Source of the DNA: Nitrosospira lacus
Lineage (GTDB): Bacteria > Pseudomonadota > Gammaproteobacteria > Burkholderiales > Nitrosomonadaceae
Length of the DNA: 64,000 nt
Reading direction: 5' to 3'
NCBI RefSeq assembly: GCF_000355765.4
Contig: NZ_CP021106.3
Span: forward strand, 2,637,137 to 2,701,136
The notes below the pieces were generated by a model that saw only the letters and a list, made by a program, of their open reading frames with translations, had not been told where the DNA came from and made no database searches. Every line of letters starts with the position of its first letter. Within the stretch, counting starts at the first letter, position 1. Positions 43,058 through 61,151 of this stretch are shown here, piece by piece. A program made the translations under genes and the position numbers.

Positions 43058-44011
43058 TTAATCCAATAGGACAGGGATATTTCTCTCCTCGGCGTGCTCA
43101 GCCTCTCTGCGATATGTGCGGAAGCGCCAGCCAAACAATCCCAAGCCGGCAAGCATCATCGCCCAGGTCTCCATTTCGGGTACGGACGAAACCTGCCAGC
43201 CGATGTCTCTCATGGCAGCATAATCAAGCTCGGTAAAATATTTGCGTTGCCCGGCGGCGATAGAAGGATCCATCGCAGCTTCCTGGGCAAGATAGCGGAG
43301 TCCGTTTGCCCAGTGACTGTCACCCGCCAGGGGGGGATTGTAACCAAGCAAGGCGTGAACGGTGCGGCCGGTAAAAGAACCATCCGAAATCAGGTTATCA
43401 AAAGAATCGGCACCGCCAAAACCGAGTACATGCGCCAACTCATGCACTGCCACCGAATAAAGGTCAAAGCCGGAAAAGGATTCGGCAGTGGTGATATCGG
43501 AATCAACATACCAGTTGGAGGCACTATTAAAGGAGATCGCCCCGCCCCATGGTCCGAAATCGGTCTTAATCGGTGCAAGAGCCCCCATCTGGCCTCTACT
43601 GAGCGCGTTGTCAATGAAATCGGCGGAACCATTGCTGACGAATCCTCCTCGACCGCCTACCGCCAGCGTGCTGCCCAAATTATGGGCACCGGCAAAAACC
43701 ACGATCTGATTCGCGGCAACGCTGAAATTGGAGATACCAGTCTTGTTACCGTTATCCGGCTGAAAGAAACTTACATCAAAACTATTCGATCCAGATGGCG
43801 TGATCGCGGTCAGCGCAGTCGGTCCGCTCTCCTGAAAGCGGCTCTCGAATGTAGAAGCTGCGGCATTCAATAAATTCTGACGTGAACTGTTAGCGCCTGT
43901 AAAAAAACCCAAACTGTCGTATCGATAGTCGAAATGGATATCGATATTAGCCAAAGCAGCCTGACTTGCGGCGAGCAATATGCCGGAAAATACCGAATAT
44001 GCGAATTTCAT
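43058..44011 (-). CDS. PEP-CTERM metalloprotease with variant sorting tag
   Basis: 317 residues, AGGAGCCAGTCAAG before ATG 44011. Signal peptide (SVFSGILLAASQAALA), a mature domain with the zinc motif HELAHVLGFG, which fits a metzincin-like HExxHxxG, and a C-terminal tag VPEMETWAMMLAGLGLFGWRFR followed by basic residues. The tag is a PEP-CTERM sequence in which the second proline is replaced by Met. After the tag there are about 18 extra residues, which is unusual for the class. Exported and probably processed by an exosortase encoded elsewhere. Confidence 0.85.
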   Translation of the reverse strand: MKFAYSVFSGILLAASQAALANIDIHFDYRYDSLGFFTGANSSRQNLLNAAASTFESRFQESGPTALTAITPSGSNSFDVSFFQPDNGNKTGISNFSVAANQIVVFAGAHNLGSTLAVGGRGGFVSNGSADFIDNALSRGQMGALAPIKTDFGPWGGAISFNSASNWYVDSDITTAESFSGFDLYSVAVHELAHVLGFGGADSFDNLISDGSFTGRTVHALLGYNPPLAGDSHWANGLRYLAQEAAMDPSIAAGQRKYFTELDYAAMRDIGWQVSSVPEMETWAMMLAGLGLFGWRFRTYRREAEHAEERNIPVLLD

Positions 44012-44040: not shown

Positions 44041-45159
44041 TTAATCGGCATGCTCCAGCGCTTGCAACGGATCAACATGGCTCAAGCCAAATTCTTTTGC
44101 AACCGCGGGATAAGTGACCGAACCCCGATGCGTGTTAAGCCCGTATTGTAGCGCCAGATTCTTTCTTACCGCATCCAATCCTTCATCAGCCAGACGCAAT
44201 GTATAAAAAGCCGTTTGCGCATTCAGCGCAAAGGTACTGGTGCGCGGGACCGCGCTCGGCATGTTGGCGACACAGTAATGCACCACTCCGTCAAGTTCAT
44301 AGGTCGGATTGCTGTGCGTGGTCGGCCGGGTGGTTTCGACGCACCCCCCTTGATCAACCGCAACGTCGACGATCACAGAACCTTTTCGCATATTCGGCAA
44401 CATCCCGGCTGTAATCAACCAGGGCGCACGTCCGCCAGGAATCAAAACGGCACCGATCACCAGATCGGCGTTGTAGATCACCTCTTCAATATTATACTCA
44501 TCACTGATGCGCGTCTGTAGTTGCCCATGATAAATGTCATCCAGGTATTTGAGGCGATCATGATTGATATCCAGCACGGTGACCTGGGCACCGGACCCAA
44601 CAGCGACGCGCGCGGCATTCGTACCGACAATGCCCGCTCCCAGAATCGCGACATTGGCTGAAGCTACGCCGGGCACACCGCCCATCAATACGCCACGGCC
44701 ACCGTACGTCTTTTGCAGATACGTTGCCCCGATTTGAGTGGCCATACGTCCCGCCACTTCACTCATGGGCGTCAACAGCGGCAATTGACCTCCTTCGGTT
44801 TGAACCGTTTCGTAGGCGATACCTGTAACGCCATGCTCCAGCAACGCGATGGTAAGCGGCTCATCCGAAGCCAGATGAAGATAGGTAAAAAGGATCATGT
44901 CTCGATGCAGATAAGAATATTCCGCCGCAGTCGGCTCCTTGACCTTAACTACCATCTGCGCCGCCCAGGCGTCTTCAGCACGAGATACGATCATGGCCCC
45001 GGCTGACTGGTATTCCGCATCTGAAAGGAAGCTCCCCTCTCCTGCCCCGCTCTGTACCAGCACCCGGTGTCCATGTCGCGTCAAGGCTTTGACTGTACTG
45101 GGTGTCATTCCAACCCGATTTTCGTGATCCTTGGTTTCCTTGGGCAATCCGATCAGCAT
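44041..45159 (-). CDS. ald: Alanine dehydrogenase
   Basis: Ald interconverts L-alanine and pyruvate plus ammonium with NAD(H). 372 residues: N-terminal MLIGLPKETKDHENRVGMTP (substrate-binding Arg and Lys), LLTPMSEVAGRMATQ, and the NAD fold GAGIVGTNAARVAVGSGAQVTVLD, then VDVAVDQGGCVETTRPTTH. A CAGGAACAAAACC stretch precedes ATG 45159. In an ammonium-handling organism it may assimilate ammonium, an inference only. It is separated from pntB by about 550 non-coding bases. Confidence 0.96.
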   Translation of the reverse strand: MLIGLPKETKDHENRVGMTPSTVKALTRHGHRVLVQSGAGEGSFLSDAEYQSAGAMIVSRAEDAWAAQMVVKVKEPTAAEYSYLHRDMILFTYLHLASDEPLTIALLEHGVTGIAYETVQTEGGQLPLLTPMSEVAGRMATQIGATYLQKTYGGRGVLMGGVPGVASANVAILGAGIVGTNAARVAVGSGAQVTVLDINHDRLKYLDDIYHGQLQTRISDEYNIEEVIYNADLVIGAVLIPGGRAPWLITAGMLPNMRKGSVIVDVAVDQGGCVETTRPTTHSNPTYELDGVVHYCVANMPSAVPRTSTFALNAQTAFYTLRLADEGLDAVRKNLALQYGLNTHRGSVTYPAVAKEFGLSHVDPLQALEHAD

Positions 45160-45711: not shown

Positions 45712-47094
45712 TTACAACGCCTTGACCATATCTTCAACAACCTTCTTGGCATCGCCGAACACCATCATGGTCTTGTCCATGTAGAACAGGTCATTGTCGA
45801 GGCCGGCATATCCCGCCGCCATGCTGCGCTTGACCACCATCACGGTGCGCGCCTTGTGAGCATCCAGAATGGGCATGCCGTAAATCGGGCTCCCCGGAAC
45901 ATTCGCCGCGGGATTTACCACATCGTTTGCGCCCAGCACCAGCACCACGTCGGTGTTGGAGAAATCGCTGTTGATCTCATCCATCTCCAGAACTTGCTCA
46001 TAGGGTATTTCCGCTTCCGCCAACAGTACGTTCATGTGCCCCGGCATGCGTCCCGCGACTGGATGTATCGCAAAACGCACGTTGACACCTTTCTCGTGCA
46101 GTTTCTCGGCCAGTTCCTTGACTGAATGCTGGGCCCGCGCCACTGCCAGACCATAACCGGGCACGATGATAACGCTGTCGGCGTTACCCATCAAGAATGC
46201 GGCATCGTCGGCACTACCGCTGCGATGGGTTTTCTGTGTCCCGTCGCTCGCCGCAGCCACTGCCCCACCCTCACTGCCAAAGCCACCAAGTATGACGGAA
46301 AGAAATGGCCGGTTCATGGCCTTGCACATGATATAAGACAGAATTGCCCCGGAACTTCCCACCAGCGATCCGGCAATGATAAGCATGGGATTGCCGAGCG
46401 AAAACCCGATTCCCGCCGCAGCCCAGCCGGAATATGAATTAAGCATGGAGATCACTACCGGCATATCCGCGCCACCGATAGGGACGATAATGAGAAAACC
46501 GAGCACAAAGGCGATCGCGGTCATGGTGGCAAAGGCTGTCCAGTTGGTAGTCTCGCTAAAGAAGAACCACAAGCCAAAACCTACCATCACGATTGCCAGA
46601 ATAAGGTTGACCATATGCTGGCCACCAAATGTAATGGGTGCGCCGCTCATGCGGCCGGACAGCTTCAAGAATGCGATGACCGAGCCCGACCAGGTCATGG
46701 CACCGATAAAGGTGCCGAGGAACAACTCCAGTTTACTGCCCATGGGCAATACCGCAGGCAGGCCGAATGAAGCCGGGTTATTGACTGCGGCGATAGCGAT
46801 AAACACCGCCGCCAGACCTACCAGCGAATGCATGAAGGCAACCAGTTCCGGCATTGCCGTCATCTGCACACGCCGTGCAACAACCGCGCCGATGGTACCT
46901 CCCAGCGCGATACATGCGAGTATCAGCGCCCAGTTCTTGGTAATCGTAAGCGTGGTGATAACGGCGATTGCCATCCCCACCATGCCGAACAGATTACCGC
47001 GACGGGCGGTTAGCGGCGAGCTCAGGCCTTTTAGCGCCAGAATAAAAAAAACCGATGCGATCAGATACGCGAATGCGACCGAATTTGCGGACAT
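45712..47094 (-). CDS. pntB: NAD(P) transhydrogenase subunit beta
   Basis: PntB carries most of the membrane helices and the NADP(H)-binding domain III of the proton-translocating transhydrogenase. 460 residues: nine or so membrane segments (1-260) and domain III with VPGYGLAVARAQHSV and VLVLGANDVVNPAANVPGSPIYGMP, the NADP-binding signature. It follows the small membrane subunit by three bases. Confidence 0.97.
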   Translation of the reverse strand: MSANSVAFAYLIASVFFILALKGLSSPLTARRGNLFGMVGMAIAVITTLTITKNWALILACIALGGTIGAVVARRVQMTAMPELVAFMHSLVGLAAVFIAIAAVNNPASFGLPAVLPMGSKLELFLGTFIGAMTWSGSVIAFLKLSGRMSGAPITFGGQHMVNLILAIVMVGFGLWFFFSETTNWTAFATMTAIAFVLGFLIIVPIGGADMPVVISMLNSYSGWAAAGIGFSLGNPMLIIAGSLVGSSGAILSYIMCKAMNRPFLSVILGGFGSEGGAVAAASDGTQKTHRSGSADDAAFLMGNADSVIIVPGYGLAVARAQHSVKELAEKLHEKGVNVRFAIHPVAGRMPGHMNVLLAEAEIPYEQVLEMDEINSDFSNTDVVLVLGANDVVNPAANVPGSPIYGMPILDAHKARTVMVVKRSMAAGYAGLDNDLFYMDKTMMVFGDAKKVVEDMVKAL

Positions 47095-47097
47095 TTA

Positions 47098-47403
47098 CTA
47101 GCTTCCTTTTTTATCTTTTTTTCTGAACATTTCCAGCATCCGCTGGGTAACAAGAAATCCGCCAAATACATTGATCGCGGCCAGCGTCACCGCCACGGCT
47201 CCCAGCCATACGCCCCAATCGGTTTCCATAGGACCGGCAGCCAGCATTGCACCGACTAAAATAATGCCGGAAATCGCATTGGTTACTGACATCAGCGGCG
47301 TATGCAGCGCCGGGGTCACGTTCCACACCACGTGGTAACCTACAAATACCGCCAGCACGAATACGGTCAGGTTAATGATGGTTGGGTCAACTTCGCCGAT
47401 CAT
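47098..47403 (-). CDS. pntAB: NAD(P) transhydrogenase small membrane subunit
   Basis: 101 residues with three to four membrane helices; [28 protein letters not shown] is the conserved segment of the membrane part of the alpha subunit. In this organism the alpha subunit is split into two genes, as in Rhodospirillum. It lies between pntA and pntB, 103 bases after the first. Confidence 0.95.
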
Positions 47404-47506: not shown

Positions 47507-48634
47507 TCAGGTTTTACCAGTTACTTCCCCATCGGCACAGACCAGCGTTCCGGAGATGACTTCATCCTCACGGTTCACCTTGAATTCGCCATTCTTCGCA
47601 TCCAGCATCAGGTTAAGAAAATTCATCAGGTTACGTGCATACAAGGCGCTGGAATCCGCAGCCACCAGTCCGGGCAGATTGGCGATACCGACGAGATGTA
47701 CGCCGTGCCTCACCACGATTTTGTCCAATTCCGACAGGGGACAGTTACCACCCGCTTCCACCGCCATATCAACGATCACCGATCCAGGTTTCATGGCACG
47801 GACGGTTTCTTCCTTGATCAAAACGGGCGCTGGGCGCCCGGGAATCAGCGCCGTCGTAATAATGATATCGGCTGCCGCCGCGCGCTGATGCACCAGTTCA
47901 CCCTGACGGCGCTTATAATCATCCGACATTTCACGAGCGTACCCGCCGGCCGTTTCCGCTTGCGCTTTCTCTTCCTCGCTCAGCGGAACCTCGACGAATT
48001 TGGCTCCGAGACTCTCTACCTGTTCTTTTGCCACCGGCCGCACATCGAACGCTTCGATCACCGCCCCCAGCCGCTTGGCAGTGGCGATAGCCTGCAAGCC
48101 TGCCACCCCGGCACCCAGAACCAGTACCCGGGCCGCCTTTACCGTACCCGCCGCGGTCATCAGCATGGGGAAAAATTTCTGATAGACATTGGCCGCCATC
48201 AGTACCGCTTTGTAGCCGGCAATATTGGCCTGCGACGATAGCACGTCCATGCTTTGGGCACGGGAAATACGCGGCAGTTTCTCCATGGCGAATGCGGTCA
48301 GGCCGTGGCGGGCGAGTGCTTCAATACCTTCCGCCTGGTGCGGAGAAAGCAACCCCAGCAACACGGCATCCTTGCGCATCATCGACAGTTCGCCGGGTTC
48401 CGGCCCGCGCACCTTCAGCACGATTTGCGATTGCCCATAAAGCTCCGCCGCGCCGGCTACAATGGTTGCCCCGGCAGCCTGGTACTCCTCATCGGGTATG
48501 CTCGCGCCGGCTCCCGCACCGGACTGTACCAGAACAACATGAAAGCCTTTGGCGGTAAATTTCTTCACCGTTTCCGGCGTGGCCGCAACACGGGTTTCAC
48601 CCCCGCGGATCTCCGCCGGTATGCCTATGTGCAT
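47507..48634 (-). CDS. pntA: NAD(P) transhydrogenase subunit alpha, soluble part
   Basis: 375 residues corresponding to the NAD(H)-binding domain I. The N-terminal IGIPAEIRGGETRVAATPETV and the nucleotide-binding GAGVAGLQAIATAKRLGAVIEAFDVR are visible, as is the RQGELVHQRAAAADIIITTALIPGRPAPVLI segment. AAGGGAGATTATCA precedes ATG 48634. First gene of pntA-pntAB-pntB. The enzyme uses the proton gradient to make NADPH, important for an autotroph's biosynthesis. Confidence 0.96.
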   Translation of the reverse strand: MHIGIPAEIRGGETRVAATPETVKKFTAKGFHVVLVQSGAGAGASIPDEEYQAAGATIVAGAAELYGQSQIVLKVRGPEPGELSMMRKDAVLLGLLSPHQAEGIEALARHGLTAFAMEKLPRISRAQSMDVLSSQANIAGYKAVLMAANVYQKFFPMLMTAAGTVKAARVLVLGAGVAGLQAIATAKRLGAVIEAFDVRPVAKEQVESLGAKFVEVPLSEEEKAQAETAGGYAREMSDDYKRRQGELVHQRAAAADIIITTALIPGRPAPVLIKEETVRAMKPGSVIVDMAVEAGGNCPLSELDKIVVRHGVHLVGIANLPGLVAADSSALYARNLMNFLNLMLDAKNGEFKVNREDEVISGTLVCADGEVTGKT

Positions 48635-48806: not shown

Positions 48807-51800
48807 TCAAGTCCCCGCCTGGCTCGCTTCCTTTAAGCAATGGCTGATCCACCGGGTGGTAAGCTTCTCCTGGACGCTGTTCTGGCGTAAACGCGATGCC
48901 AGTCCGCCGAAATCAACCTGGTCAAGCGGCTGATCCTGATTGAAGCATGAGAATACGTAGGTAATTTCGCCTGTCTCCGGATCTTTGTGCGGTTGCAGAC
49001 ACTGAGCACAGATTTCTTTCATCATGCACTGCATCGGTGAATTGATCGAGCCGATCGCATAGTGATCCGTCTTCAAATAAGGCCGAAGCTTATTATGCCG
49101 CGCGGCACCTACCGCCGCCATCATCCGGTCGGAGCCAATAGCGATGATACGATCAGCATCCGACAACAGAATTTTCTGAGGACCCAGCGCACCGCTACCA
49201 TACGCAGCCATCGCGTCCACGATATTACCAACGTAACTAAAATCGTCCGGCCGGGAGGGCGTGAAACCCGGTGCTTCATCGCAACACCATATCACGATGT
49301 CCGCCGCCGCCTCGATTTCCGCCACCTTATAGCGATCGATCAGTTTCTTGTAACCGGCAAAATATAAAATTTTGGATCCCGCGGCGCGAGCCGCGGCACC
49401 AATGGAAAACAATACCGCGTTACCCAGTCCGCCCCCCACCAGCACAACGGTTTCCTCCGGCAGGATCTCCGTGGGAGTGCCGGTGGGACCCATCAGCACT
49501 ACCGGATCGCCAGGATTGAGTTTGGCGCACAAATCCGCCGACCCGCCCATTTCCAGGGCAATCAGCGATACCAGTCCGTGCGGAACATCAACCGAGGCTC
49601 CCGTCAGGGCGATTCCTTCCATCGCCAATTTCGTATCGCCCACCGTGGTGGCGAGTGTGGCAAAATTCTGGAAGCGATAGAATTGACCAGGGTGAAAACG
49701 CTCCACCGCCATCGGCGCATGCACCACCACTTCAATAATATTGGGGGTCAACCGCTCGACCTTATGCACGGTAGCGCGTAATCGCCTATTCATTTCAGCA
49801 AAAAACAGGCTGGTGGGCTTTGTTGATGCCGGCGCGACGCGTCCGAGCATCCGGCTAACCACCGGATAACCCTGTTTTGCGCTGGACATGGCCTTCACCA
49901 CATTGCCCGAATAAGATGGATGCAGATCGCCAAAAAAGCTGATGAAACGCCCGTCGTCGCAACGGCTCAGCAATACCATCGAAGTGTCCGGCTTGGGGTT
50001 TCCCCGGGGGGGGCTCACTGGGTCGCCGTTTTCATCGCAGGCCGCGAAGTAACGCCCGTTCAGTTTGAAATTCTTTTCGTCTTCTCTGGCAAGTACCGTG
50101 TTTGGTTGAGTTCCCGCCGCAACCAAGACGGCGCTGGCGGGTAATTCAGCTTGTCCGGTTTCTTGCCATGAACCTGTTTCATCCAGGACCTGCACCGAGA
50201 ATTTCACAGATCTCGCATGTTCCCACTTGTCGGCTTCCACTCGTACAGGCGTGAGGCCTTCAGCAAACCAGATGCCCTCCTCCAGCGCCTTTTCGACTTC
50301 CTCGTGATTGAGTGTGTAGGATGGGCTGTCGATGAGCCGTTTCCGGTAAGCGATGGTGGCGCCACCCCATGATTGAAGCAATTCCAGTACACGCGGCGCC
50401 CGTTCCTCCTTTTCCGCCGTCTTGCGCTCCGCGCGTATGGCGCGGGCGTGACTGAGAAACTCCTCGGCTATTTCCCGCTCTTCCTCATCCCATGCGCCGC
50501 GAATCGCCGCTTCACCCTGTACGGCTGTAAGAATCTCATAACGGCGAAGAAATTTTTCCACTTGTACGGGGTAATAAGCAAGCGCTTCGGTTGCCGTGTC
50601 GATGGCGGTCAGGCCTCCGCCGATCACCACCACGGGCAGGCGTAACTGCATGTTGGCAACGGAATTGGTCTGCGCCGCACCGGATAACTGCAGCGCCATC
50701 AGAAAATCGGATGCGGCGCGAACACCCCGTGCCAGCCCATTGGGCATATCGAGCACAGTGGGACGCCCGGCCCCCGCAGCCAGCGCCACATGATCGAATC
50801 CCATGGCCAAGGCGTCATCGGCGGTAAGCGTTCCACCGAAGCGGACGCCGCCAAAAAGTGCAAACTCTTCCCGCCGCTCCAGAAGCAAGCGGATCAACTT
50901 CAGAAAATTTTTGTTCCAGCGTACGGTAATTCCATATTCGGCAACACCGCCAAAACCTCCCGGCATGCGCTCATCCAGATTTTCTTCGAGCTCGCCGGCA
51001 TCACGAATGGCATTGAATGAAACATGCTCACCCTGACTGTTCACACCTGAAAGTTCTGGATCCAAAGGCTCTATCTTGAGACCGTCAATGCCAACCACGG
51101 TATGGCCATCGTTCATCAGATGATGTGCCAGGGTATATCCAGCGGGTCCCATGCCCACTACCAGCACCTTCCGGCCGGTTGGTGCCTTCGGAACCGGCCG
51201 CCGCAGGTTGAGTGCATTCCATCGGGTAAGCAGACTATAAATTTCGAAGCCCCAGGGCAATTCAAGTACATCCTTGAGTGTACGCGTCTCCGCCTGCGGG
51301 ATATCGACCGGTTCCTGTTTCTGGTAAATGCAGGACTTCATGCAATCATTGCATATGCGGTGGCCGGTACCCGCGCACATGGGATTGTCCACTACGATCA
51401 TCCCCAGACCGCTGATGGCAAGCCCTTGAGTCTTTAATTTGTGGAACTCGGAAATGCGTTCCTCCAGCGGACATCCGGCGAGGAGTACACCCAACTGGCT
51501 TTTTTTGAATGATGGCGTTTCTCCCGGCGCCTTCGGCTTCTCCTTTAATCCTTTCGAGCACGAATCCTTGCCCTGCTCATGACACCAAATGCAGTAATTC
51601 GCCTCATCCAGGGCACCCACCAGATCGGTGCCGACATCAGTGAGCGCAAAACCCTCCCGGCGCCGTATATGATGAAGGCGATGAACGGTATAGCCGGCGG
51701 TGGTGTCGGCATCCGTTAATAAGAGATGCAGATAATCAAGCTTGGCGGGGGCCTTGAACAATATTCCCCCCTGATTACGTTCCCGTCCCGCCGCTGTTTT

Positions 51801-52358
51801 CAGCGCCCACGCCGCATAGAGCAAAGCATCCCCGAGCCGTTCTTCATTCGTGTTTTCATCCAACAGCCATTCTGTGACTTGGGTTGCAAAAACCAGTTCC
51901 GAAAAGGGCTTCCCGAATTCGGCGGCCAGTTTTTCCTCCAATGCGATGCCATCCACTGCGACCGCTTCCGCCTCGCTCACCTTGTTCATCGCCCGGCGCT
52001 GTACGAATTGTCTTTTGCAGGCATAAAGTGGAGCCAGCTGATGATGGCGAGCGGCAAGCGCACTGACTTCTTTCTCTATGCCGAACAGCCTGGCAATGAA
52101 ATCCTCCATCCACGGTGCTACCTCGATCAGCAGGGCTGCTTCCTCTTTGCGATCCAGGCTATCGGGATTGGCGCGAGCAAGATCCAGGCGGACACGCAGC
52201 CCGGCCTCCCCTTCATGCAGAAAATCGAGAAATGCCTGATCCAGTCTTACCAGACCATCGCGGCGATACAGATCAGCAAAAACCATGTCGAATCCCAATG
52301 CGGGGAAAGCAGCTGTTGCCGGTTCAAGGTGAAGCGCCGATTGTAAGCTTGTTGTCAT
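48807..52358 (-). CDS. Fused GltD/NfnB-like and PyrK/NfnA-like flavoprotein oxidoreductase
   Basis: 1183 residues from ATG 52358. A helical N-terminal part (1-245) has no recognised family. It is followed by a ferredoxin-like segment with cysteines 256, 259, 267, 296, 328, 336, 339 and 343, able to hold two 4Fe-4S clusters, then a two-Rossmann FAD/NAD(P) module (VVGMGPAGYTLAHHL near 400, VVVIGGGLTAIDTATEAL, later AAGTQPNT). The last third (about 840 on) is a flavin reductase-like domain (ERFHPGQFYRF, VVLVGGGLGNAV) ending in CMMKEICAQCLQ and a further Cys, the cluster pattern of PyrK. The layout is that of NfnB plus NfnA in one chain. Electron transfer between NADH, NADPH and a ferredoxin-type partner is a reasonable expectation but unproven. 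Upstream of pntA on the same strand. Confidence 0.85.
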   Translation of the reverse strand: MTTSLQSALHLEPATAAFPALGFDMVFADLYRRDGLVRLDQAFLDFLHEGEAGLRVRLDLARANPDSLDRKEEAALLIEVAPWMEDFIARLFGIEKEVSALAARHHQLAPLYACKRQFVQRRAMNKVSEAEAVAVDGIALEEKLAAEFGKPFSELVFATQVTEWLLDENTNEERLGDALLYAAWALKTAAGRERNQGGILFKAPAKLDYLHLLLTDADTTAGYTVHRLHHIRRREGFALTDVGTDLVGALDEANYCIWCHEQGKDSCSKGLKEKPKAPGETPSFKKSQLGVLLAGCPLEERISEFHKLKTQGLAISGLGMIVVDNPMCAGTGHRICNDCMKSCIYQKQEPVDIPQAETRTLKDVLELPWGFEIYSLLTRWNALNLRRPVPKAPTGRKVLVVGMGPAGYTLAHHLMNDGHTVVGIDGLKIEPLDPELSGVNSQGEHVSFNAIRDAGELEENLDERMPGGFGGVAEYGITVRWNKNFLKLIRLLLERREEFALFGGVRFGGTLTADDALAMGFDHVALAAGAGRPTVLDMPNGLARGVRAASDFLMALQLSGAAQTNSVANMQLRLPVVVIGGGLTAIDTATEALAYYPVQVEKFLRRYEILTAVQGEAAIRGAWDEEEREIAEEFLSHARAIRAERKTAEKEERAPRVLELLQSWGGATIAYRKRLIDSPSYTLNHEEVEKALEEGIWFAEGLTPVRVEADKWEHARSVKFSVQVLDETGSWQETGQAELPASAVLVAAGTQPNTVLAREDEKNFKLNGRYFAACDENGDPVSPPRGNPKPDTSMVLLSRCDDGRFISFFGDLHPSYSGNVVKAMSSAKQGYPVVSRMLGRVAPASTKPTSLFFAEMNRRLRATVHKVERLTPNIIEVVVHAPMAVERFHPGQFYRFQNFATLATTVGDTKLAMEGIALTGASVDVPHGLVSLIALEMGGSADLCAKLNPGDPVVLMGPTGTPTEILPEETVVLVGGGLGNAVLFSIGAAARAAGSKILYFAGYKKLIDRYKVAEIEAAADIVIWCCDEAPGFTPSRPDDFSYVGNIVDAMAAYGSGALGPQKILLSDADRIIAIGSDRMMAAVGAARHNKLRPYLKTDHYAIGSINSPMQCMMKEICAQCLQPHKDPETGEITYVFSCFNQDQPLDQVDFGGLASRLRQNSVQEKLTTRWISHCLKEASQAGT

Positions 52359-52483: not shown

Positions 52484-52509
52484 AAAAAATACAAAAGCGG
52501 CAACGCCGC
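52484..52509 (-). terminator. Rho-independent terminator after cysN
   Basis: On the minus strand GCGGC (52509-52505) and GCCGC (52501-52497) form a short GC stem with a three-base loop, followed by TTTTGTATTTTTT down to 52484. It lies about 95 bases after the cysN stop and ahead of the large flavoprotein gene, so it probably ends the sulfate assimilation transcript. Confidence 0.6.
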
Positions 52510-52602
52510 CCCCTTCGCGCTGTCCGCCTTAATCGTCCTGTAGCTTCACAACCTGAACAGCCTTATGCCGGAATCCTCGGCGGTTGACCTAAAACGATCA
52601 AA

Positions 52603-53895
52603 CTAATCCAAATTCCTTGCCGGGCAGATCATGCCTGCGGCAACGGTGTTGTTACTTACCTCGTCAATAACAATAAAGCTGCCGGTGGCATGGTTGCGCT
52701 GATACTGATCACATACCAGGGGCTGGTGCATTTTCAGCGCAACCCGCCCGATATCATTCATTTTCAAGGTTTCCACCACCTCATGATTAAGCGTATTGAT
52801 ATCCACGCGATAGTCTATACGTGTCACCAGCGCCTTTACGACACGTGTCGTGTGCTTGACGAGATATTTTCGCCGCGGGTCGAGGCTTTGCTCTGACAGC
52901 CAACACAGCATTGCCTCAAATTCCTTTGTCACCCAAGGAATGTCTCCCCCGGTTTTTACCAGCATATCGCCACGGGAAATATCCAGATGGTCTTCAATGG
53001 TCAATGTTACCGACTGGGGTGCGACCGCGTGATTGATAGTACCATCATAAGTCACGATTTCCTTGATATGCGAAGTCAGCCCGGAAGGAAGCACCTTCAC
53101 CGCATCACCGACGCTGATGGATCCCGACTCGACCCGCCCCATGTATCCCCGGAAATCGTGCATTTCCTCGGTTTGCGGACGGCACACCAACTGCACCGGA
53201 AACCGGAAATCCTCGAGATTGATGTCATGGTCGATGGGAACGTTCTCCAGCAAATCCATCAACGCCATGCCCTTGTACCAGCCAAGTTTTTCTCCGCGCT
53301 CCACCACCATATCCCCATTCAGGGCGGACATCGGAATGTACGCAATATTATTCAGCCTGAGCCCGCCGGCAAACGCGGCGAAATCCTCGCAGATCTGCTC
53401 AAACACCTCACGGGAGTAGCCCACCAGATCCATTTTGTTGACTGCCACCACCAGATGAGGGATCCCCACCAGACTGGCCAGATACGCATGTCGGCGCGAC
53501 TGGGTGAGCACCCCTTTGCGTGCGTCAATCAGGATAATAGCCAGATTGGCAGTGGAAGCCCCTGTCACCATGTTACGGGTATATTGCTCGTGACCGGGGG
53601 TGTCGGCGATAATAAACTTGCGTTTAGGCGTTGCAAAGTAACGATAGGCCACGTCGATGGTAATACCTTGCTCACGCTCCGCTTGCAAACCATCGGTGAG
53701 CAGCGACAGATCGACACCTTCCATGCCGCGCCTGCGAGTCGTATGAGTAATGGCGCTCAATTGATCTTCAAAGATGGATTTCGAATCATGCAGCAAGCGC
53801 CCGATCAACGTGCTCTTCCCGTCGTCCACACTGCCGGCGGTAATGAAACGTAACAACTCGGCGTGATCAAACGAAATATTTTCAACTGCTGACAT
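52603..53895 (-). CDS. cysN: Sulfate adenylyltransferase subunit 1 (GTPase)
   Basis: CysN is the GTPase subunit of ATP sulfurylase, which activates sulfate to APS. 430 residues with the EF-Tu-like motifs GSVDDGKSTLIGRLL (G1), DTPGHEQYTRNM (G3) and VNKMDLVGYS (G4), then two beta-barrel domains. No C-terminal APS kinase (CysC) is fused. It is separated from cysD by 160 bases, longer than usual for a cysDN pair. Confidence 0.96.
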   Translation of the reverse strand: MSAVENISFDHAELLRFITAGSVDDGKSTLIGRLLHDSKSIFEDQLSAITHTTRRRGMEGVDLSLLTDGLQAEREQGITIDVAYRYFATPKRKFIIADTPGHEQYTRNMVTGASTANLAIILIDARKGVLTQSRRHAYLASLVGIPHLVVAVNKMDLVGYSREVFEQICEDFAAFAGGLRLNNIAYIPMSALNGDMVVERGEKLGWYKGMALMDLLENVPIDHDINLEDFRFPVQLVCRPQTEEMHDFRGYMGRVESGSISVGDAVKVLPSGLTSHIKEIVTYDGTINHAVAPQSVTLTIEDHLDISRGDMLVKTGGDIPWVTKEFEAMLCWLSEQSLDPRRKYLVKHTTRVVKALVTRIDYRVDINTLNHEVVETLKMNDIGRVALKMHQPLVCDQYQRNHATGSFIVIDEVSNNTVAAGMICPARNLD

Positions 53896-54055: not shown

Positions 54056-55051
54056 TCAGAAATACCCTTCTTTTTTTCGCAACTCCATGGATGCATCCGA
54101 AGTCTGGTCATCCATGCGGGTCGCGCCGCGTTCGGTGATCCGGGTGGTCGCGGTTTCGGCTATGATTTCACTTATGCTGCTTGCCGTGGACTCCACCGGA
54201 CAGGTGCAACTCATATCTCCCACTGTACGAAAGCGCACCATGATATTTTCCGTTTTTTCGCCCTCCTGAGGCTGCACCAGGTGGGAAACCGGCAAAAGAC
54301 CACTCCCGCGTCTGATTACATCACGCTTGTGGGCGAAGTAAATATGCGGTACTTCCAGTTCCTCGCGGGCAATGTATTCCCAGACATCAAGCTCGGTCCA
54401 GTTGCTGATTGGAAACACACGGATATTTTCTCCCGGATGCACACGGGTATTGTAGATATCCCACAGTTCGGGACGCTGGCTCTTCGGATCCCATTGACCG
54501 AATTCGTCGCGGAAGGAAAATATACGTTCCTTGGCCCGCGCTTTCTCCTCGTCACGGCGCGCGCCACCGATGCAGGCATCAAAACGAAATTCGGCGATGG
54601 CATCCAGCAGTGTTACCGACTGAAACGCATTACGACTCTGATTTTCAGACCGAAGCACTACTCTCCCCTGGCGGATGGAATCCTCCATACTGCGCACAAT
54701 CAACCGCTCACCCAGTTGCTGGGCTCGGCGGTCGCGGAATTCAATCACTTCCGGGAAATTATGGCCGGTGTCGATATGCAGCAGTGGAAATGGAAAACGT
54801 CCCGGGCGAAAGGCTTTTTCCGCCAACCGCAACAACACGATGGAATCCTTCCCGCCGGAAAACAATAATGCCGGATTGGTGCATTCGGCCGCCACTTCCC
54901 TCAGGATATGGATAGCTTCACTTTCCAACGCATCCAGATGGCCCAACTGTCTCGCAATACGTCGTTTGGATGCTGCCGGTTCACTTTTCATCACAGAACC
55001 CGGAACGGGAGTAATAAATCCTTGCACGTTGTTTCTCAATAGGGTATCCAT
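54056..55051 (-). CDS. cysD: Sulfate adenylyltransferase subunit 2
   Basis: CysD is the catalytic ATP-pyrophosphatase subunit of ATP sulfurylase. 331 residues. The PP-loop LLFSGGKDSIVLL and the conserved RDEEKARAKERIFSFRDEFGQWDPKSQRPELW region and the C-terminal DQTSDASMELRKKEGYF are present, all typical. It lies 16 bases after cysH and is slightly longer at the N terminus than E. coli CysD. Confidence 0.97.
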   Translation of the reverse strand: MDTLLRNNVQGFITPVPGSVMKSEPAASKRRIARQLGHLDALESEAIHILREVAAECTNPALLFSGGKDSIVLLRLAEKAFRPGRFPFPLLHIDTGHNFPEVIEFRDRRAQQLGERLIVRSMEDSIRQGRVVLRSENQSRNAFQSVTLLDAIAEFRFDACIGGARRDEEKARAKERIFSFRDEFGQWDPKSQRPELWDIYNTRVHPGENIRVFPISNWTELDVWEYIAREELEVPHIYFAHKRDVIRRGSGLLPVSHLVQPQEGEKTENIMVRFRTVGDMSCTCPVESTASSISEIIAETATTRITERGATRMDDQTSDASMELRKKEGYF

Positions 55052-55067: not shown

Positions 55068-55856
55068 TTACGAACCACGAGGCTTTGTCAGCGCCTGGTC
55101 ATGCTCTTTCTTTTCGTCCCGAGCTTGACCCGGAACAACCATATCCGCTGCCAAACGGGTAGCCACAGCCTTACGGCGCTTGTCCGGATGCAAACCGCAC
55201 TCCTTGATTTCGGGATTTTCCCACCACCAGCGTCCGGCACGGACATCTTCGCCGGGAGTAATGGCACGCGTACAGGGAGCGCAACCGATACTTGTGTAAC
55301 CCTTGTCGTGCAACGCGTTATAGGGAACATCGAATTGCTTGAGATAAGCCCACACGTCGGATAGATTCCAATCCAGCAGCGGACTGATCTTTTGCAAACC
55401 ATTGTCAGCATCAAATTCCGATTCAGCCAGACCCTTTCTGGTCGGCGCCTGATCACGGCGCAGACCGGTGATCCACGCGCGCTTTCCACGCAAGGCACGT
55501 TTCAGTGGTTCCACTTTACGAATATGACAACATGTTTTGCGCAACTCCACGCTGTCATAGAACGCATTGGGACCATTCTGCGCAACGTATGCTTCCACGG
55601 CGGCAGGCTCGGGAAAATATACGGGAACACGAATGCCATAGCGCTCCGCCACTTCTCTCATCAGGCTATAGGTTTCTTCCGGCAGGCGGCCGGTATCCAG
55701 TGTAAACATTTCAATGCCGGGATAATACCGGGCGATGATATCCGTCAGCACCATATCCTCGGCACCGAAACTGTTGGCGAAAACGGCCGGAGCATAGTCT
55801 GTCTGCACCTTATCCAGCAGTATGCGCACGTCGGCAATCTTTTGATCCAGGCTCAT
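55068..55856 (-). CDS. cysH: Adenylyl-sulfate (APS) reductase
   Basis: CysH reduces activated sulfate to sulfite. 262 residues. Beside the PP-loop-like core (AVFANSFGAEDMVL), the four cluster cysteines KTCCHIRK and SIGCAPCTR and the catalytic Cys in KECGLH are all present. The CC and CxxC pairs bind a 4Fe-4S cluster and mark the APS-using type rather than the PAPS-using type, which agrees with the absence of cysC next to cysN. Confidence 0.96.
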   Translation of the reverse strand: MSLDQKIADVRILLDKVQTDYAPAVFANSFGAEDMVLTDIIARYYPGIEMFTLDTGRLPEETYSLMREVAERYGIRVPVYFPEPAAVEAYVAQNGPNAFYDSVELRKTCCHIRKVEPLKRALRGKRAWITGLRRDQAPTRKGLAESEFDADNGLQKISPLLDWNLSDVWAYLKQFDVPYNALHDKGYTSIGCAPCTRAITPGEDVRAGRWWWENPEIKECGLHPDKRRKAVATRLAADMVVPGQARDEKKEHDQALTKPRGS

Positions 55857-55888: not shown

Positions 55889-57985
55889 CTATAACGTGAC
55901 CGATGACTGTGTCTGCTGGAGCGGCAATGGCTTGGCCGAAGCTTTTAGCGGCAGCGCGCCAGTCAGGTCAAGCTGATGATCGAAACCAAGGCAGAATTCC
56001 GCAGTCTCCATCGTCCACGCATCCAAGTCGGAAAACCATTCGGTCAGTCGAATATCACTCAATTCCTCGACCGGGCTCGCGAAATCCTCCGCGAATTTAG
56101 CCAATTGCCTGGATAAACGCGGCTTGGTAGGCAATACGCGACGCAGCTCCTCCGCCTGCTTGACCAGATCATCGTACTTCTGGCCACTGAGCAGCTCCGT
56201 CACACCCTGGCCGATCAACCGGGCGATCTCCTCCGCACATTTGACTGAATCTTCGAATTTTCGCTGGAACTTCAGCGCATCCCGGTAGTTCCGCTCATGG
56301 GCCGCTTCAAAAAAACTTGAACCGATTTTTACCTGACTGACTCCCGCACACTCGCCACCACCCAGTTGCAACACCTTGAAATCGCCATCCTTGCCATGAT
56401 CGCGCAAGACAGATTCCAACTCCTCCGGCTTGACTTCGCCTAGATCCGCGAGCAGATCGGCGAAATAAGCCTTGCCTACACGCCTGGTCCAGGAGAAGAA
56501 TGTTTCATTCGCCTCGCGATTGGATGCATAAGCCGATTTCACACGTTCCACCGCCGTCTCCACACGTGCCGAGGGAATCGACGGGCCTTTGATCGCCAGC
56601 GCTCCGCGCGCCATGCCATTGCCGCCAAAATACATCTGATAATGTGGCACAAGCTTGCCGTGCATGCGCTTGCCTTCCCCATAAATGCCAATGTCGCCGG
56701 TCTCGGGCTGTGCACAGCCGTTATGACACCCTGAAACACGAATTTTCAGATCATGCTTGCCACCGCTCAGTTTAGGCCCGACGATCGTGCTTGAAGTTAT
56801 TCCCAGACGGCAAGTGGAAGTACCGGGACAAGCCACCACATCATCACCCGCCCGGGGTTCCCCCAGACCCAACGCAGCCAGGGCAGCTCGCAGCGGTTCG
56901 ATTTTGGTTTCCGGCACATTCGGCAGAAACATGTTCTGATCCTGCGTTGCACGAATTTCATGCAACCCGTAAGTCTCGGCAATACAGGCAAGACCGCGCA
57001 GCTGCACCACACTTAGATTACCCATCGGCACACTGATCGGAAATACGTGATAGCCAGGCTGCTTTTGTGCGAACACATGACGCGGTGCACCAATACCGGG
57101 GACTTCGCTGTCGGCGCCACCGCTCCATTCGCCCTTGGGGTAATCCTGGGTCGCCAGTGCCGTTTTAGTACGGGCCAATTCTTCGCGATACTTTTCGATA
57201 AAGCCTTCGGGACCGAATTTGTCGACCAGAAACTTGATCCGCGCCTTGGCGCGCTTGATACGATCGGAATAGCGGTTGTGCAATGAAATAACAGCCTCCA
57301 TCACAAGCAGCAAATCCTTTTCTTCGACGAACTCTTCAACGACGATAGCCTCGTGCGGTTTGTGTCCGAGGCCCCCTCCGGCCAGAACCTTGAAACCGAA
57401 ACGGTCGCCATTGCGCACCGCCACGATTCCCATATCGTGCATCATGCCCTGGGCGCAATCGGATTCACAGGCCGAGAAGCTGATCTTGAACTTGCGCGGC
57501 ATTTGCTGGGTCAGCGGATTGCGCAAAAAATGCTGAACCGCCCCGTCGAGATGCTTTGTGACGTCGACATGCTGACGAGGACACACCCCGGACAGCGGAC
57601 AGGCGGTGACGTTACGTATTGTATTGCCGCAGGCCTCGCGCGTCGTCAATCCAGCTGTGGCCAGGTAACGAAGCACCGCGGGCGTATCCTCGAGCGGTAC
57701 GTAATGCATCTGGATATCCTGACGCGTGGTGATATGGACAACATCATGATGCGCATATTTTTCCAGCATATCGGCGATCACGCTCAATTGCGGTCCGTTT
57801 ACGCGCCCTCCGGGAAGCTTGATGCGCACCATATTGACGCCTTCCTGCCGCTGCCCGTAAATCCCCATTTGCAGACGGGCGGCGGTAAAACGATCGGCAT
57901 CCATGCGCAGGCCCTGATAATCCTGCAGTGCCTGATCAAACGAATTTATTTCCTCGTCGTTGGCAAGGTAATTCAAGTGACTCAT
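55889..57985 (-). CDS. cysI: Sulfite/nitrite reductase hemoprotein (CysI-type) with two cluster motifs
   Basis: 698 residues from ATG 57985 (GGAG upstream; the frame to 58084 is longer than needed). Two tandem sulfite-reductase halves are followed by a C-terminal extension (about 560-698). The second half carries the siroheme/4Fe-4S motif CPGTSTC (386-392) and CHNGC (420-424). The first half also has a complete CPLSGVC (129-135) and CESDC (173-177), which is not expected of the classical single-cluster enzyme. It reduces sulfite to sulfide for cysteine synthesis; a nitrite-reducing activity is possible. First gene of the cysI-cysH-cysD-cysN series, divergent from the cysB-type regulator. Confidence 0.92.
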   Translation of the reverse strand: MSHLNYLANDEEINSFDQALQDYQGLRMDADRFTAARLQMGIYGQRQEGVNMVRIKLPGGRVNGPQLSVIADMLEKYAHHDVVHITTRQDIQMHYVPLEDTPAVLRYLATAGLTTREACGNTIRNVTACPLSGVCPRQHVDVTKHLDGAVQHFLRNPLTQQMPRKFKISFSACESDCAQGMMHDMGIVAVRNGDRFGFKVLAGGGLGHKPHEAIVVEEFVEEKDLLLVMEAVISLHNRYSDRIKRAKARIKFLVDKFGPEGFIEKYREELARTKTALATQDYPKGEWSGGADSEVPGIGAPRHVFAQKQPGYHVFPISVPMGNLSVVQLRGLACIAETYGLHEIRATQDQNMFLPNVPETKIEPLRAALAALGLGEPRAGDDVVACPGTSTCRLGITSSTIVGPKLSGGKHDLKIRVSGCHNGCAQPETGDIGIYGEGKRMHGKLVPHYQMYFGGNGMARGALAIKGPSIPSARVETAVERVKSAYASNREANETFFSWTRRVGKAYFADLLADLGEVKPEELESVLRDHGKDGDFKVLQLGGGECAGVSQVKIGSSFFEAAHERNYRDALKFQRKFEDSVKCAEEIARLIGQGVTELLSGQKYDDLVKQAEELRRVLPTKPRLSRQLAKFAEDFASPVEELSDIRLTEWFSDLDAWTMETAEFCLGFDHQLDLTGALPLKASAKPLPLQQTQSSVTL

Positions 57986-58297
57986 TCTGAAATCTCCACA
58001 ATTTATGGTCGCGTCATTTTGACGCCGGCGGCAAGAGATCGCCGTAACTATTGACATAGCGGGTCGGGCATTGACCCCATCCACTCCGGGACCGGTCTGC
58101 CGCGGGCCGGATAGAATTCATCATTCCTGCCTAAATATAACCCGGCTCTATAACGTCCGCTCGCACCTTTCCCGCCGTATACCGCGCGTATAACCAGATA
58201 TGTTGCCTCGGAAACAGCATAATAGCAACGGGTATATATATCACGAAAGAATATTATGTTAGATTATTATAACCTAACATTATTTAGAGTAAAAATC
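57986..58297. other. Divergent regulatory region between cysI and the CysB-family regulator
   Basis: 312 bases. It should hold promoters for both genes. A 25-bp imperfect palindrome at 58256-58280 lies 17 bases ahead of the regulator start (listed separately). Promoter boxes for the cysI side were not convincingly found. The region 58085-58200 is GC-moderate and has no gene. Confidence 0.45.
58256..58280. promoter_or_regulatory. Palindromic operator candidate upstream of the CysB-family gene
   Basis: Arms ATGTTAG (58256-58262) and CTAACAT (58274-58280) with inner TTAT/ATAA pairs and one mismatch make an AT-rich 25-bp palindrome. LysR-type regulators usually bind such sites near their own promoter, and its position next to the start suggests autorepression. 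Binding is not proven. Confidence 0.5.
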
Positions 58298-59224: not shown

Positions 59225-59291
59225 ATGCGACGGTTCCCCAAGGGACCTGCTCTTCGGGTATCTCGCATACAACATGGAGAACTTGGGACGG

Positions 59292-59297
59292 TATAAT
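59292..59297 (+). promoter_or_regulatory. Possible -10 box for mutL
   Basis: A perfect TATAAT lies 27 bases ahead of ATG 59325. The -35 region at 17 bases spacing (ACAACA) is poor. Its position inside the upstream extension of the open frame supports the downstream start for mutL. Confidence 0.3.
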
Positions 59298-59324
59298 GCA
59301 CTTCATCCTGATTCCATTTCCGCC

Positions 59325-61151
59325 ATGAACGCGATCAAGCTTCTTCCCGATCTGCTTATCAGCCAGATCTCGGCCGGCGAGGTGATAGGGCGGCCAGCCT
59401 CGGCACTCAAGGAGCTGCTGGAGAATAGCGTGGATGCCGCAGCCACGGAAATAACGGTGCAGCTTTTCCAGGGGGGAATCAAACTAATCCGTGTCGCGGA
59501 CAACGGGACCGGAATCTCCCGGGATGATCTGCCGCTTGCGCTTGCCCGCCATGCGACCAGCAAGATCAACACATTGGAAGATCTGCAGAAAATAGCGAGC
59601 CTGGGCTTTCGTGGCGAAGCATTGGCAAGTATCGCGGCTGTTTCGCGCTTGACATTGACAAGCCGTGGGAGAGAGGAGAAACACGCCTGGCAGATACAAA
59701 CAAAAGACCGTCATCTGTCACCGCCCGAACCCGCGGCTCTTGCCTCGGGCACCACGGTGGAAATACATGACCTTTATTTCAACATACCGGCACGGCGCAA
59801 ATTCCTGAAGACCGAGGCTACTGAATACGCTCATTGTGACGAAATATTCAAGTGGATTGCCTTGTCGCGCGCTGACATCGGCTTTACGCTGCAACACAAT
59901 GGAACCCTGCGCAGGCATCTGCGCCCGGCGGATCCACGGCTTCGCATTGCGGCGATACTGGGAGATGAATTCGCCCAAGCCTCGGTATTCGTCGACGAAC
60001 GAGCAGCGGACTTGCGGCTGTGGGGTGCATCAGCGTTGCCCAACTACTCACGATCATCGCGCAATAACCAGTATTTTTTTGTCAATGGCCGTTTCGTACG
60101 CGACAAACTGATTGCTCATGCGTTACGCGAAGCCTATCGCGATATCCTCCATCCGGATCGGCATCCGGCTTTTGCGCTATTCCTGGAAATGAACGCCGAT
60201 GGCGTGGATGTGAATGTGCATCCCACTAAAACCGAGGTTAAATTCCACGATTCGCGTGCACTGCACCAATTCATTTTTCATACAATCAACAAAGCGCTGG
60301 CATCGCCGCAATTGGCATCCGTAGCCTCTGTATCCCCCGCCCGGGACCAGGAGCCGAGGTACGGAAGCCGGGCGGTCGTTGCCCCATTTTCCACCTACGC
60401 ACAGCAGCGCATCATGCCGCTTGCGCCGCAGATAATGCCGGATGCGGCATCCGCGCTGCCAGGGATGGCGGCCCAATCACAAGCGTTCTATCAAACCCTG
60501 TTCGACACCGGCACGGGATCATCAATTGATTCGATGGCAACTGCGATCGCTGACAAAAAACAGGAGGTCCCGCCCTTGGGATTTGCCTTGGGACAACTAC
60601 TCGGCATTTATATTCTGTCGCAGAATGACCGCGGCTTATTGATCGTGGACATGCACGCGGCGCACGAGCGGATATTATATGAAAAACTCAAGTTGGCGCT
60701 CGACAACCACAGCCTCTCGATGCAGCCTTTGCTTATCCCCGTGACATTTCAGGCGGATAGCCTGGATATCGCGACAGTTGAGGAAAACAGTGCTGTCCTG
60801 TGCGAGCTCGGGTTTGAAATCTCGGTGTTTTCCCCCACTATGCTGGTGGTACGGGCTGTACCAGCCACTCTCAAGGACGCCGACGTGATAAAACTCGCGC
60901 ACGATGTAATAAGCGAGATCCGGGAATTTGGTGCCAGCCAGGCATTGACCGGCAGACGTAACGAACTTCTCTCCACCATGGCCTGCCATGGCGCGGTTCG
61001 CGCTAATCGTATGCTGACCATTCCGGAAATGAATGCGCTGTTACGTGAAATGGAAGCGACCGCACGCTCCGGCCAATGCAATCACGGCCGGCCAACGTGG
61101 TTTGAGATCAGTCTTGCCGATCTCGATAAAATGTTCATGCGAGGCAGATGA
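59325..61151 (+). CDS. mutL: DNA mismatch repair protein MutL, endonuclease type
   Basis: MutL couples mismatch recognition by MutS to strand removal. 608 residues from ATG 59325; the frame opens at 59274 but the family N terminus (IKLLPDLLISQISAGEV) fits the later start. GHKL ATPase motifs ELLENSVDA, VADNGTGIS and FRGEALASI are intact. The C-terminal domain has DMHAAHERILYE, a DQHA(X)2E(X)4E motif with Met for Gln, plus ACHGAVRANR and CNHGRPTW, so an intrinsic metal-dependent nicking activity is expected, in line with the lack of MutH in this lineage. The stop overlaps the next gene by four bases. Confidence 0.95.
   Translation: MNAIKLLPDLLISQISAGEVIGRPASALKELLENSVDAAATEITVQLFQGGIKLIRVADNGTGISRDDLPLALARHATSKINTLEDLQKIASLGFRGEALASIAAVSRLTLTSRGREEKHAWQIQTKDRHLSPPEPAALASGTTVEIHDLYFNIPARRKFLKTEATEYAHCDEIFKWIALSRADIGFTLQHNGTLRRHLRPADPRLRIAAILGDEFAQASVFVDERAADLRLWGASALPNYSRSSRNNQYFFVNGRFVRDKLIAHALREAYRDILHPDRHPAFALFLEMNADGVDVNVHPTKTEVKFHDSRALHQFIFHTINKALASPQLASVASVSPARDQEPRYGSRAVVAPFSTYAQQRIMPLAPQIMPDAASALPGMAAQSQAFYQTLFDTGTGSSIDSMATAIADKKQEVPPLGFALGQLLGIYILSQNDRGLLIVDMHAAHERILYEKLKLALDNHSLSMQPLLIPVTFQADSLDIATVEENSAVLCELGFEISVFSPTMLVVRAVPATLKDADVIKLAHDVISEIREFGASQALTGRRNELLSTMACHGAVRANRMLTIPEMNALLREMEATARSGQCNHGRPTWFEISLADLDKMFMRGR

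Follow-up and report, generated by a model that had tools for sequence, protein, structure and literature searches.

The stretch of DNA analysed here (the window, 64,000 nucleotides) belongs to the genome of Nitrosospira lacus, a single contig of 3,261,088 bases. Our subject is one of its genes, which runs on the minus strand from an ATG start at 52358 to 48807 without internal stop and encodes a protein of 1183 residues, here called P0001. The original prediction, made from the sequence, saw in it a one-chain version of Nfn, the electron-bifurcating transhydrogenase of ferredoxin, NADH and NADPH (reduced nicotinamide adenine dinucleotide and its phosphate), which is built of NfnB and NfnA, placed it next to the genes of the proton-translocating transhydrogenase (pntAB) and suggested that an aerobic autotroph may use it together with PntAB to balance NADH and NADPH. 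The complete reading frame, to which we add the strand, the NfnB plus NfnA layout and the pntAB neighbours are all borne out. The identity as a bifurcating Nfn fares less well: two hallmarks of Nfn are replaced in every aligned member of the family, and we lean towards a ferredoxin reductase that resembles Nfn in layout and probably differs from it in mechanism. The gene has the following features:

48807-52358, minus strand: complete gene of P0001, a PRK06567-like fused NfnB-NfnA-type flavoprotein (ATG at 52358, stop codon at 48807-48809; 782 bits to NF005128)
51759-52307, minus strand: N-terminal helical domain, about residues 18-200, from the AlphaFold model, without known fold or family match
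51288-51593, minus strand: two predicted [4Fe-4S] sites (C256, C259, C267, C296, C336, C339, C343 and E357, each in 93/93 sequences), from alignment to P. furiosus NfnL (PfNfnL) and to Nfn/PRK12779-type profiles
49830-51179, minus strand: double Rossmann module for flavin adenine dinucleotide (FAD) and NADPH, residues ~394-843 (Pfam PF07992; VIA Z 24.8 to PfNfnL and 25.1 to GltD)
48810-49796, minus strand: NfnA/PyrK-like FAD and NAD(P) module, residues 855-1183 (hhalign 99.3% to NfnA halves; hmmsearch)
48945-49028, minus strand: C-terminal cluster motif C1111-x5-C1117-x2-C1120-x17-C1138 (each Cys in 93/93)

The best NCBIfam model for P0001 is by far PRK06567 (NF005128), which has 1031 positions and whose database name, 'putative bifunctional glutamate synthase subunit beta/2-polyprenylphenol hydroxylase', is an annotation and not a tested function. 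The best of three matching stretches places residues 21-730 of P0001 on model positions 3-692, N-terminal domain included, and the score falls short of the curated cut-off, 1072. Not one match above this value came from the 398 genomes of the phylum that we searched, so the cut-off may fit a narrower clade. By score, P0001 is a member neither of PRK12779 (NF009415; 77.9 bits, cut-off 1519) nor of the GltD model TIGR01317 (50.9 bits, cut-off 447.7), and Pyr_redox_2 (PF07992, E 0.001) is the sole Pfam match.

A genome scan with P0001 gave at least 586 confirmed relatives, the best 80 of which are 64-89% identical to it in the best segment (the closest among these being that of Nitrosospira briensis Nsp8, at 89%). 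The gene is thus real and conserved rather than a chance reading frame. At E 1e-100 it is matched in 16 of the 398 genomes of the phylum sample, over nine family labels including its own, and in none of 14 control genomes; the family is widespread but patchy in the phylum. Conservation is given throughout for 93 sequences, namely P0001, 78 relatives with a full reading frame and 14 phylum matches. This set leaves out two of the 80 loci (L026 and L052) and two of the 16 phylum matches (L087, which is cut, and L091, which is the own genome again), and one sequence (L081) is aligned without its N-terminal part. In the literature searched, where subscription journals were mostly outside coverage, we found no study of this family.

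The full-length AlphaFold2 model (64 sequences, all, like the 45 rows used for the N-terminal domain, from the window and its relatives) has a mean predicted local distance difference test score (pLDDT) of 86.2 and a predicted template modelling score (pTM) of 0.88. Its middle part (~201-843) superposes on PfNfnL (5jfc_L) with 2.7 A over 442 residues and on GltD (2vdc_G) with 3.4 A over 428 residues. The superposition on Nfn proposed in the original prediction is therefore obtained, but the VIA Z scores for Nfn and GltD are tied, and the comparison of the predicted fold cannot separate the two. Profile comparisons by hhalign relate the NfnB half to two fused Nfn and six PRK12779-type proteins (99.8%, E 6.5e-29), and the NfnA half to two fused Nfn and three PRK12779-type proteins (E 1.4e-20). 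The NfnA half also finds 4ylf_A (1.7e-16) and 5jca_S (1.2e-14) by hmmsearch, and the C-terminal part resembles PfNfnS with a template modelling score of 0.85 of the target, at 3.6 A. The predicted fold thus backs both the double Rossmann module and the PyrK-like reductase that had been proposed.

Eight cysteines occur between residues 256 and 343, as originally noted, and seven of them are the invariant ones listed above; the eighth, C328, is Cys in just 37 of 93 sequences. The eighth ligand of the predicted [4Fe-4S] sites is most likely Glu357, which pairs in the alignment with E126 of P. furiosus NfnL (numbering counted from the alignment), described as a site-differentiated ligand (PMC9503767). 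By sequence, the NfnB pattern of seven Cys and one Glu is present, with a spacing that differs from the published motif. In the FAD/NADPH module, which carries a family-specific insert at ~603-663, G402, G404, G407, R480, Y671 and R672 are each found in 93/93, the last two within the NADPH phosphate-binding motif. In PfNfnL the N5 atom of the bifurcating flavin is contacted by R201 (PMC12921514), whose counterpart is probably R480, depending on the alignment. We compared these positions with 20 controls (L104-L123), the best matches of a GltD-type search of 299 genomes; the motif is partly unreadable in L109 and L113. Where the motif was visible, the GltD/AegA-like controls carry Lys in place of the N5 arginine.

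Two other positions set the family apart from Nfn. For R333 of PfNfnL, PMC12921514 reports conservation in bifurcating enzymes alone. An Arg of this type is present in both fused Nfn controls (L104, L105) and in six of the eight PRK12779-type proteins, namely in every one whose motif was found, and the position is Ser in 10/10 GltD/AegA-like controls. In the family of P0001 it corresponds to N684 or Y681, depending on the alignment, and both residues are 93/93. The second position lies in the [2Fe-2S] motif of Nfn, which reads DGTGMCGxC and includes an Asp ligand (PMC6405883). The two fused Nfn controls have DGTGMCGSC, PRK12779-type proteins have VDATGMCG with the Asp in 3/3 aligned, and the position of the Asp is C1111 in all 93 sequences here. 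In Nfn the [2Fe-2S] cluster lies 14-15 A from the FAD of NfnB (PMC6405883). The [2Fe-2S] cluster of PyrK is held by four Cys. The motif of P0001, with four invariant cysteines, is PyrK-like rather than Nfn-like; it is the one first read as C-x5-C-x2-C-x16-C, except that the last spacing is x17.

The NfnA half differs also at its flavin. Of the motif ERxPxT found at the FAD of NfnA (PMC6405883), Glu and Thr are kept, but Arg and Pro are lost. It reads EGxAxT in the family (E914 in 92, G915 in 91, A917 in 92 and T919 in 91 of 93). The one full-length aligned member of a shorter type (L086, genome G343; 1023 aa), which fits the PRK06567 model nearly end to end, misses part of the C-terminal NAD(P) domain. 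Its NAD-site glycines (~residues 974-1020 of P0001) are gone and its four cluster cysteines retained; in L097 these glycines are altered and the four cysteines again retained.

A quick maximum-likelihood tree was built from 37 rows of the NfnB half; it carries a long-branch warning, and we rely on it solely for setting the family apart. All 19 PRK06567-like rows lie together on one side of a single branch, whose support is 100 in the Shimodaira-Hasegawa-like approximate likelihood ratio test (SH-aLRT) and whose length is 5.26 + 2.65 changes per column either side of the midpoint drawn as root. On the far side stand the Nfn, PRK12779-type and GltD/AegA proteins together, the Nfn and PRK12779-type group having a support of 68. 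Because this long branch sets the family apart, we do not file P0001 as Nfn, even if it is built alike.

Most likely, in our view, P0001 is a ferredoxin reductase that depends on NADPH, has a second site for pyridine nucleotides, shares the layout of Nfn and is either non-bifurcating or differently tuned; it would supply low-potential electrons, and we give this reading a probability of about 0.5. It is preferred because the Asp ligand and the bifurcation-associated Arg are replaced in every aligned member, and the loss of these two hallmarks makes the mechanism of Nfn less likely for P0001. NADPH would reduce the FAD of the GltD/NfnB half, and the electrons would pass via the two predicted [4Fe-4S] clusters to a soluble ferredoxin or a similar acceptor. 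The predicted four-Cys [2Fe-2S] cluster and second FAD of the C-terminal half would connect this path to the second NAD(P)(H) site, and the neighbouring PntAB could supply NADPH in Nitrosomonadaceae. The conserved residues are in favour of NADPH oxidation at the first FAD and of the route over the two clusters. Our results establish the predicted fold, candidate ligands, conservation and gene order; which cofactors are bound, the direction and substrates, the lack of bifurcation and the physiological role are inferred. The genome of N. lacus encodes two small ferredoxins (82 aa, L129; 107 aa, L127) and one FNR-type protein, and we found no match in it to the CysJ-type domain FAD_binding_1 (PF00667), which makes the role of ferredoxin reductase plausible. 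Little is known about how aerobic autotrophs, ammonia oxidisers among them, produce low-potential electrons for ferredoxin. An enzyme that is conserved, encoded by one gene and predicted to hold five redox cofactors, and in which two residues considered to govern bifurcation in Nfn are naturally replaced, would amount to a natural experiment on those residues.

Several points weigh against this interpretation. The FNR-type protein could reduce ferredoxin instead. FAD in the NfnA half is likely, not certain, because ERxPxT loses its Arg and Pro. The model is of low confidence at residues 1-17, 470-476, 1107-1109 and 1112-1116. The last three of these stretches fall in the flavin loop (470-476), which adjoins R480 and has a pLDDT below 50, and in the cluster loop (1107-1116). 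The pairing of R480 with R201 depends on gap placement, since HMMER aligned the two, hhalign placed them one column off and MAFFT left them unpaired. Finally, the exchange of NfnL E126 for Cys is reported to uncouple the two branches and not to abolish activity (PMC9503767); ligand swaps tune potentials and do not alone disprove bifurcation.

The most probable of the alternatives, though unlikely in our view, is a true bifurcating or confurcating NADH/NADPH/ferredoxin transhydrogenase, that is, a fused Nfn working in an aerobe and tuned by other residues. Both Nfn halves keep conserved candidate ligands, including E357 and probably the N5-type R480, and proteobacterial Pattern C fusions in the order NfnB-NfnA are on record (PMC6405883). 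These observations have to be set against the replacement of the Asp ligand by Cys and of R333 in 93/93, the place of the family outside the sampled Nfn/PRK12779-type group in the tree, and the second NAD site, whose glycines are gone in L086 and altered in L097. It is rather improbable, in our view, that the family is a third deep branch of GltD/NfnB proteins, with an N-terminal domain of its own, which in aerobic proteobacteria would carry electrons from NADPH to ferredoxin and a second acceptor by a mechanism of the bifurcation type, with an all-Cys [2Fe-2S] cluster and without R333.

The similarity of the NfnB half to other redox subunits raises a further alternative, which we think more doubtful still: P0001 could be the redox subunit of a larger enzyme, in the way that GltD serves GltB, or that the N-terminal part of dihydropyrimidine dehydrogenase (DPD) serves the pyrimidine site of that enzyme, and its own N-terminal domain would bind a partner or substrate. 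For the NfnB half, the matches to GltD and DPD (Z about 20 with VIA) are roughly as good as that to Nfn. Within the family the N-terminal domain is conserved, and nothing known matched it. The first ~250 residues are mostly helical up to about residue 194, and residues 1-250 modelled alone give a helical domain (pLDDT block means of at least 90 for 21-200, pTM 0.63). Foldseek found nothing for it at E 0.001 (best E 3.2), VIA-align reached a best Z of 3.6 among 91 chains, and Pfam gave no match at E 1. The helical N terminus was originally said to belong to no recognised family, which stands for the domain but not for the whole protein, covered as it is by the PRK06567 model. The fold searches show an absence of match and not proof of a new fold, and a search with the whole model hardly bears on this domain.

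The genome also encodes, elsewhere, one protein with a glutamate synthase domain (PF01645, 517-aa frame, 288 bits), and we found in it no match above the GltD cut-off. No GltB-type large subunit was found by Pfam and NCBIfam among the ten neighbouring genes scanned. Against a redox subunit stand the ten named clusters (of 60) of recurrent neighbours, which include folD, dihydroorotate dehydrogenase, a class III aminotransferase and transporters (Pfam) and among which no shared pathway is evident. Moreover, five family-positive genomes (G008, G063, G114, G139, G291) have a strong GltD-type match as well (TIGR01316, E<=1e-100, below cut-off, frames of 480-539 aa; 299 genomes searched, which may not cover all 16). 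Since these five have both, the family does not simply replace GltD, and we dropped the glutamate synthase function suggested by the database name. The own genome holds a GltD-type fragment that looks like a relic (L100:1465-1941, G000:C1 ~2097895-2098197; TIGR01317 positions 10-112 of 485, 168-aa frame). Together with the 517-aa frame, it had at first hinted at such a replacement.

The gene lies in a row of genes on one strand, transcribed in the order cysI-like, cysH, cysD, cysN, P0001 gene, pntAA, pntAB, pntB:

55889-58084, minus strand: cysI-like sulfite/nitrite reductase hemoprotein (PF01077 and PF03460)
55068-55856, minus strand: cysH, reductase of adenylylsulfate or phosphoadenylylsulfate (APS/PAPS), TIGR02055 above cut-off
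54056-55051, minus strand: cysD (TIGR02039 above cut-off)
52603-53895, minus strand: cysN, upstream of the P0001 gene (TIGR02034 above cut-off)
52493-52513, minus strand: terminator-like hairpin between cysN and the P0001 gene, no more than chance would give (6 found in the region, 6.8 expected)
47507-48634, minus strand: pntAA, transhydrogenase alpha subunit part 1 (Pfam and NCBIfam)
47098-47403, minus strand: pntAB, four-transmembrane (4TM) part of the alpha subunit (PF12769)
45712-47094, minus strand: pntB (PF02233, 640 bits)

The P0001 gene is separated by 244 bases from cysN and by 172 bases from pntAA. Promoter and terminator scans gave results at or below chance expectation. The CysI-like hemoprotein has 731 aa from a GTG start. 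Beyond pntB, a PEP-CTERM metalloprotease-like gene adjoins an alanine dehydrogenase gene (43058-44011 and 44041-45159).

We analysed the neighbourhood of the family in the best 80 of the at least 586 relatives. On the downstream side, where 71 of the 80 loci have more than 1.5 kb of sequence, pntAA is next to the family gene in 25, all with Nitrosomonadaceae or Nitrotoga titles or from metagenome-assembled genomes with broader titles and like sequence and neighbours. It was not seen in six Nitrosomonas loci with 10 kb of downstream sequence (L017, L018, L020, L021, L022, L033). cysN occurs in the flank upstream of the family gene in 26 loci; 20 loci have both genes, and neither was seen in the flanks of 49, of which some lie on short contigs. 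The four Nitrotoga-type loci have pntAA and no cys genes in the flank. In three of them, the other side of the family gene is occupied by a homologue of the gene at 59274-61151, which lies beyond the cys block in the window and which, by its sequence and not by search, we take to be mutL. The adjacency of pntAB is possibly one inherited block: an ancestral mutL-gene-pntAB arrangement, into which cys genes would have come later in Nitrosomonadaceae, would explain both the Nitrotoga loci and the window.

Some loci vary in other ways. In at least four Nitrosomonas-type loci with pntAA, ~2 kb separate the family gene from cysN. In two Nitrosomonas-type loci (L031, L052) a response regulator-EAL gene directly precedes the flavoprotein gene (named from the L020 copy). 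Several Nitrosomonas loci have a cysI just ~30% identical to that of the window, and a DUF934 gene accompanies the cys genes in 12 loci (named from the L015 copy).

It had been proposed to survey the co-occurrence of the gene with pntAB. pntB is present in 14 of the 16 family-positive genomes (not in G236 and G355). The survey is uninformative because pntB is found in 348 of the 398 genomes anyway, and we dropped co-occurrence as functional evidence.

A link to sulfite reductase is possible in this lineage, but it is the least probable of our readings that P0001 is in Nitrosomonadaceae mainly the ferredoxin-reducing partner of the upstream assimilatory sulfite reductase, with PntAB supplying NADPH: the same-strand row from cysI to pntAB, the 26 loci with cysN and the lack of a CysJ-type domain match in the own genome agree with it, whereas the 49 loci with neither gene, the Nitrotoga-type loci, the ~2 kb to cysN in the Nitrosomonas-type ones and the wider distribution of the family, which it leaves unexplained, do not.

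The ferredoxin reductase that we favour can finally be placed among known systems. NfnAB/NfnSL of P. furiosus (5JCA) and T. maritima (4YLF) share with P0001 both halves, the two [4Fe-4S] sites with a Glu ligand, the NADPH motif, the PyrK-like half with its FAD and cluster motifs and, probably, the N5 arginine. P0001 differs from them by its single chain, its extra N-terminal domain and inserts in the cluster and NADPH regions, in addition to the Cys in place of the Asp ligand, the missing R333 and the change from ERxPxT to EGxAxT. GltD has the fold of the NfnB half and its Cys and Glu ligands; it lacks the NfnA half, and the GltD/AegA-like controls have Lys at the N5 position, where the motif was visible, and Ser at that of R333.

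Among fused proteins, the PRK12779-type (L106, which exceeds the PRK12779 cut-off, was tested; L107-L113 were assigned by similarity) also have a single chain, with an N-terminal extension of ~200 residues followed by NfnB and NfnA. They differ from P0001 by the Asp in VDATGMCG, by an MPVR motif with the R333-type Arg and by the N-terminal domain: despite the equal module order, hhalign gave a probability of 0.3% between the two N termini, which are not detectably related. These proteins are likely, from their architecture, the Pattern C of fused Nfn homologs in Proteobacteria, in NfnB-NfnA order, listed as uncharacterised by Liang et al. 2019 (PMC6405883). One of the fused Nfn controls from the same phylum (L104, genome G191; 994 aa) is of the PRK12775 type, above its NCBIfam cut-off and with a ferritin domain according to the model name. 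AadN of Rhodopseudomonas palustris (PMC9973337) is likewise a fused, Nfn-like, proteobacterial protein proposed to supply reduced ferredoxin, but it is a Pattern B fusion, at least 51% identical to both PfNfnI subunits, and serves anaerobic aromatic degradation.

Fused Nfn homologs with such a module order were thus already known, and so was the annotation model PRK06567, which resembles P0001 along its N-terminal domain too but gives it a score below the curated cut-off. With respect to the literature searched, what is new is that the family branches off on its own, carries an N-terminal domain particular to it and differs from its relatives by a set of redox-tuning residues that is fixed.

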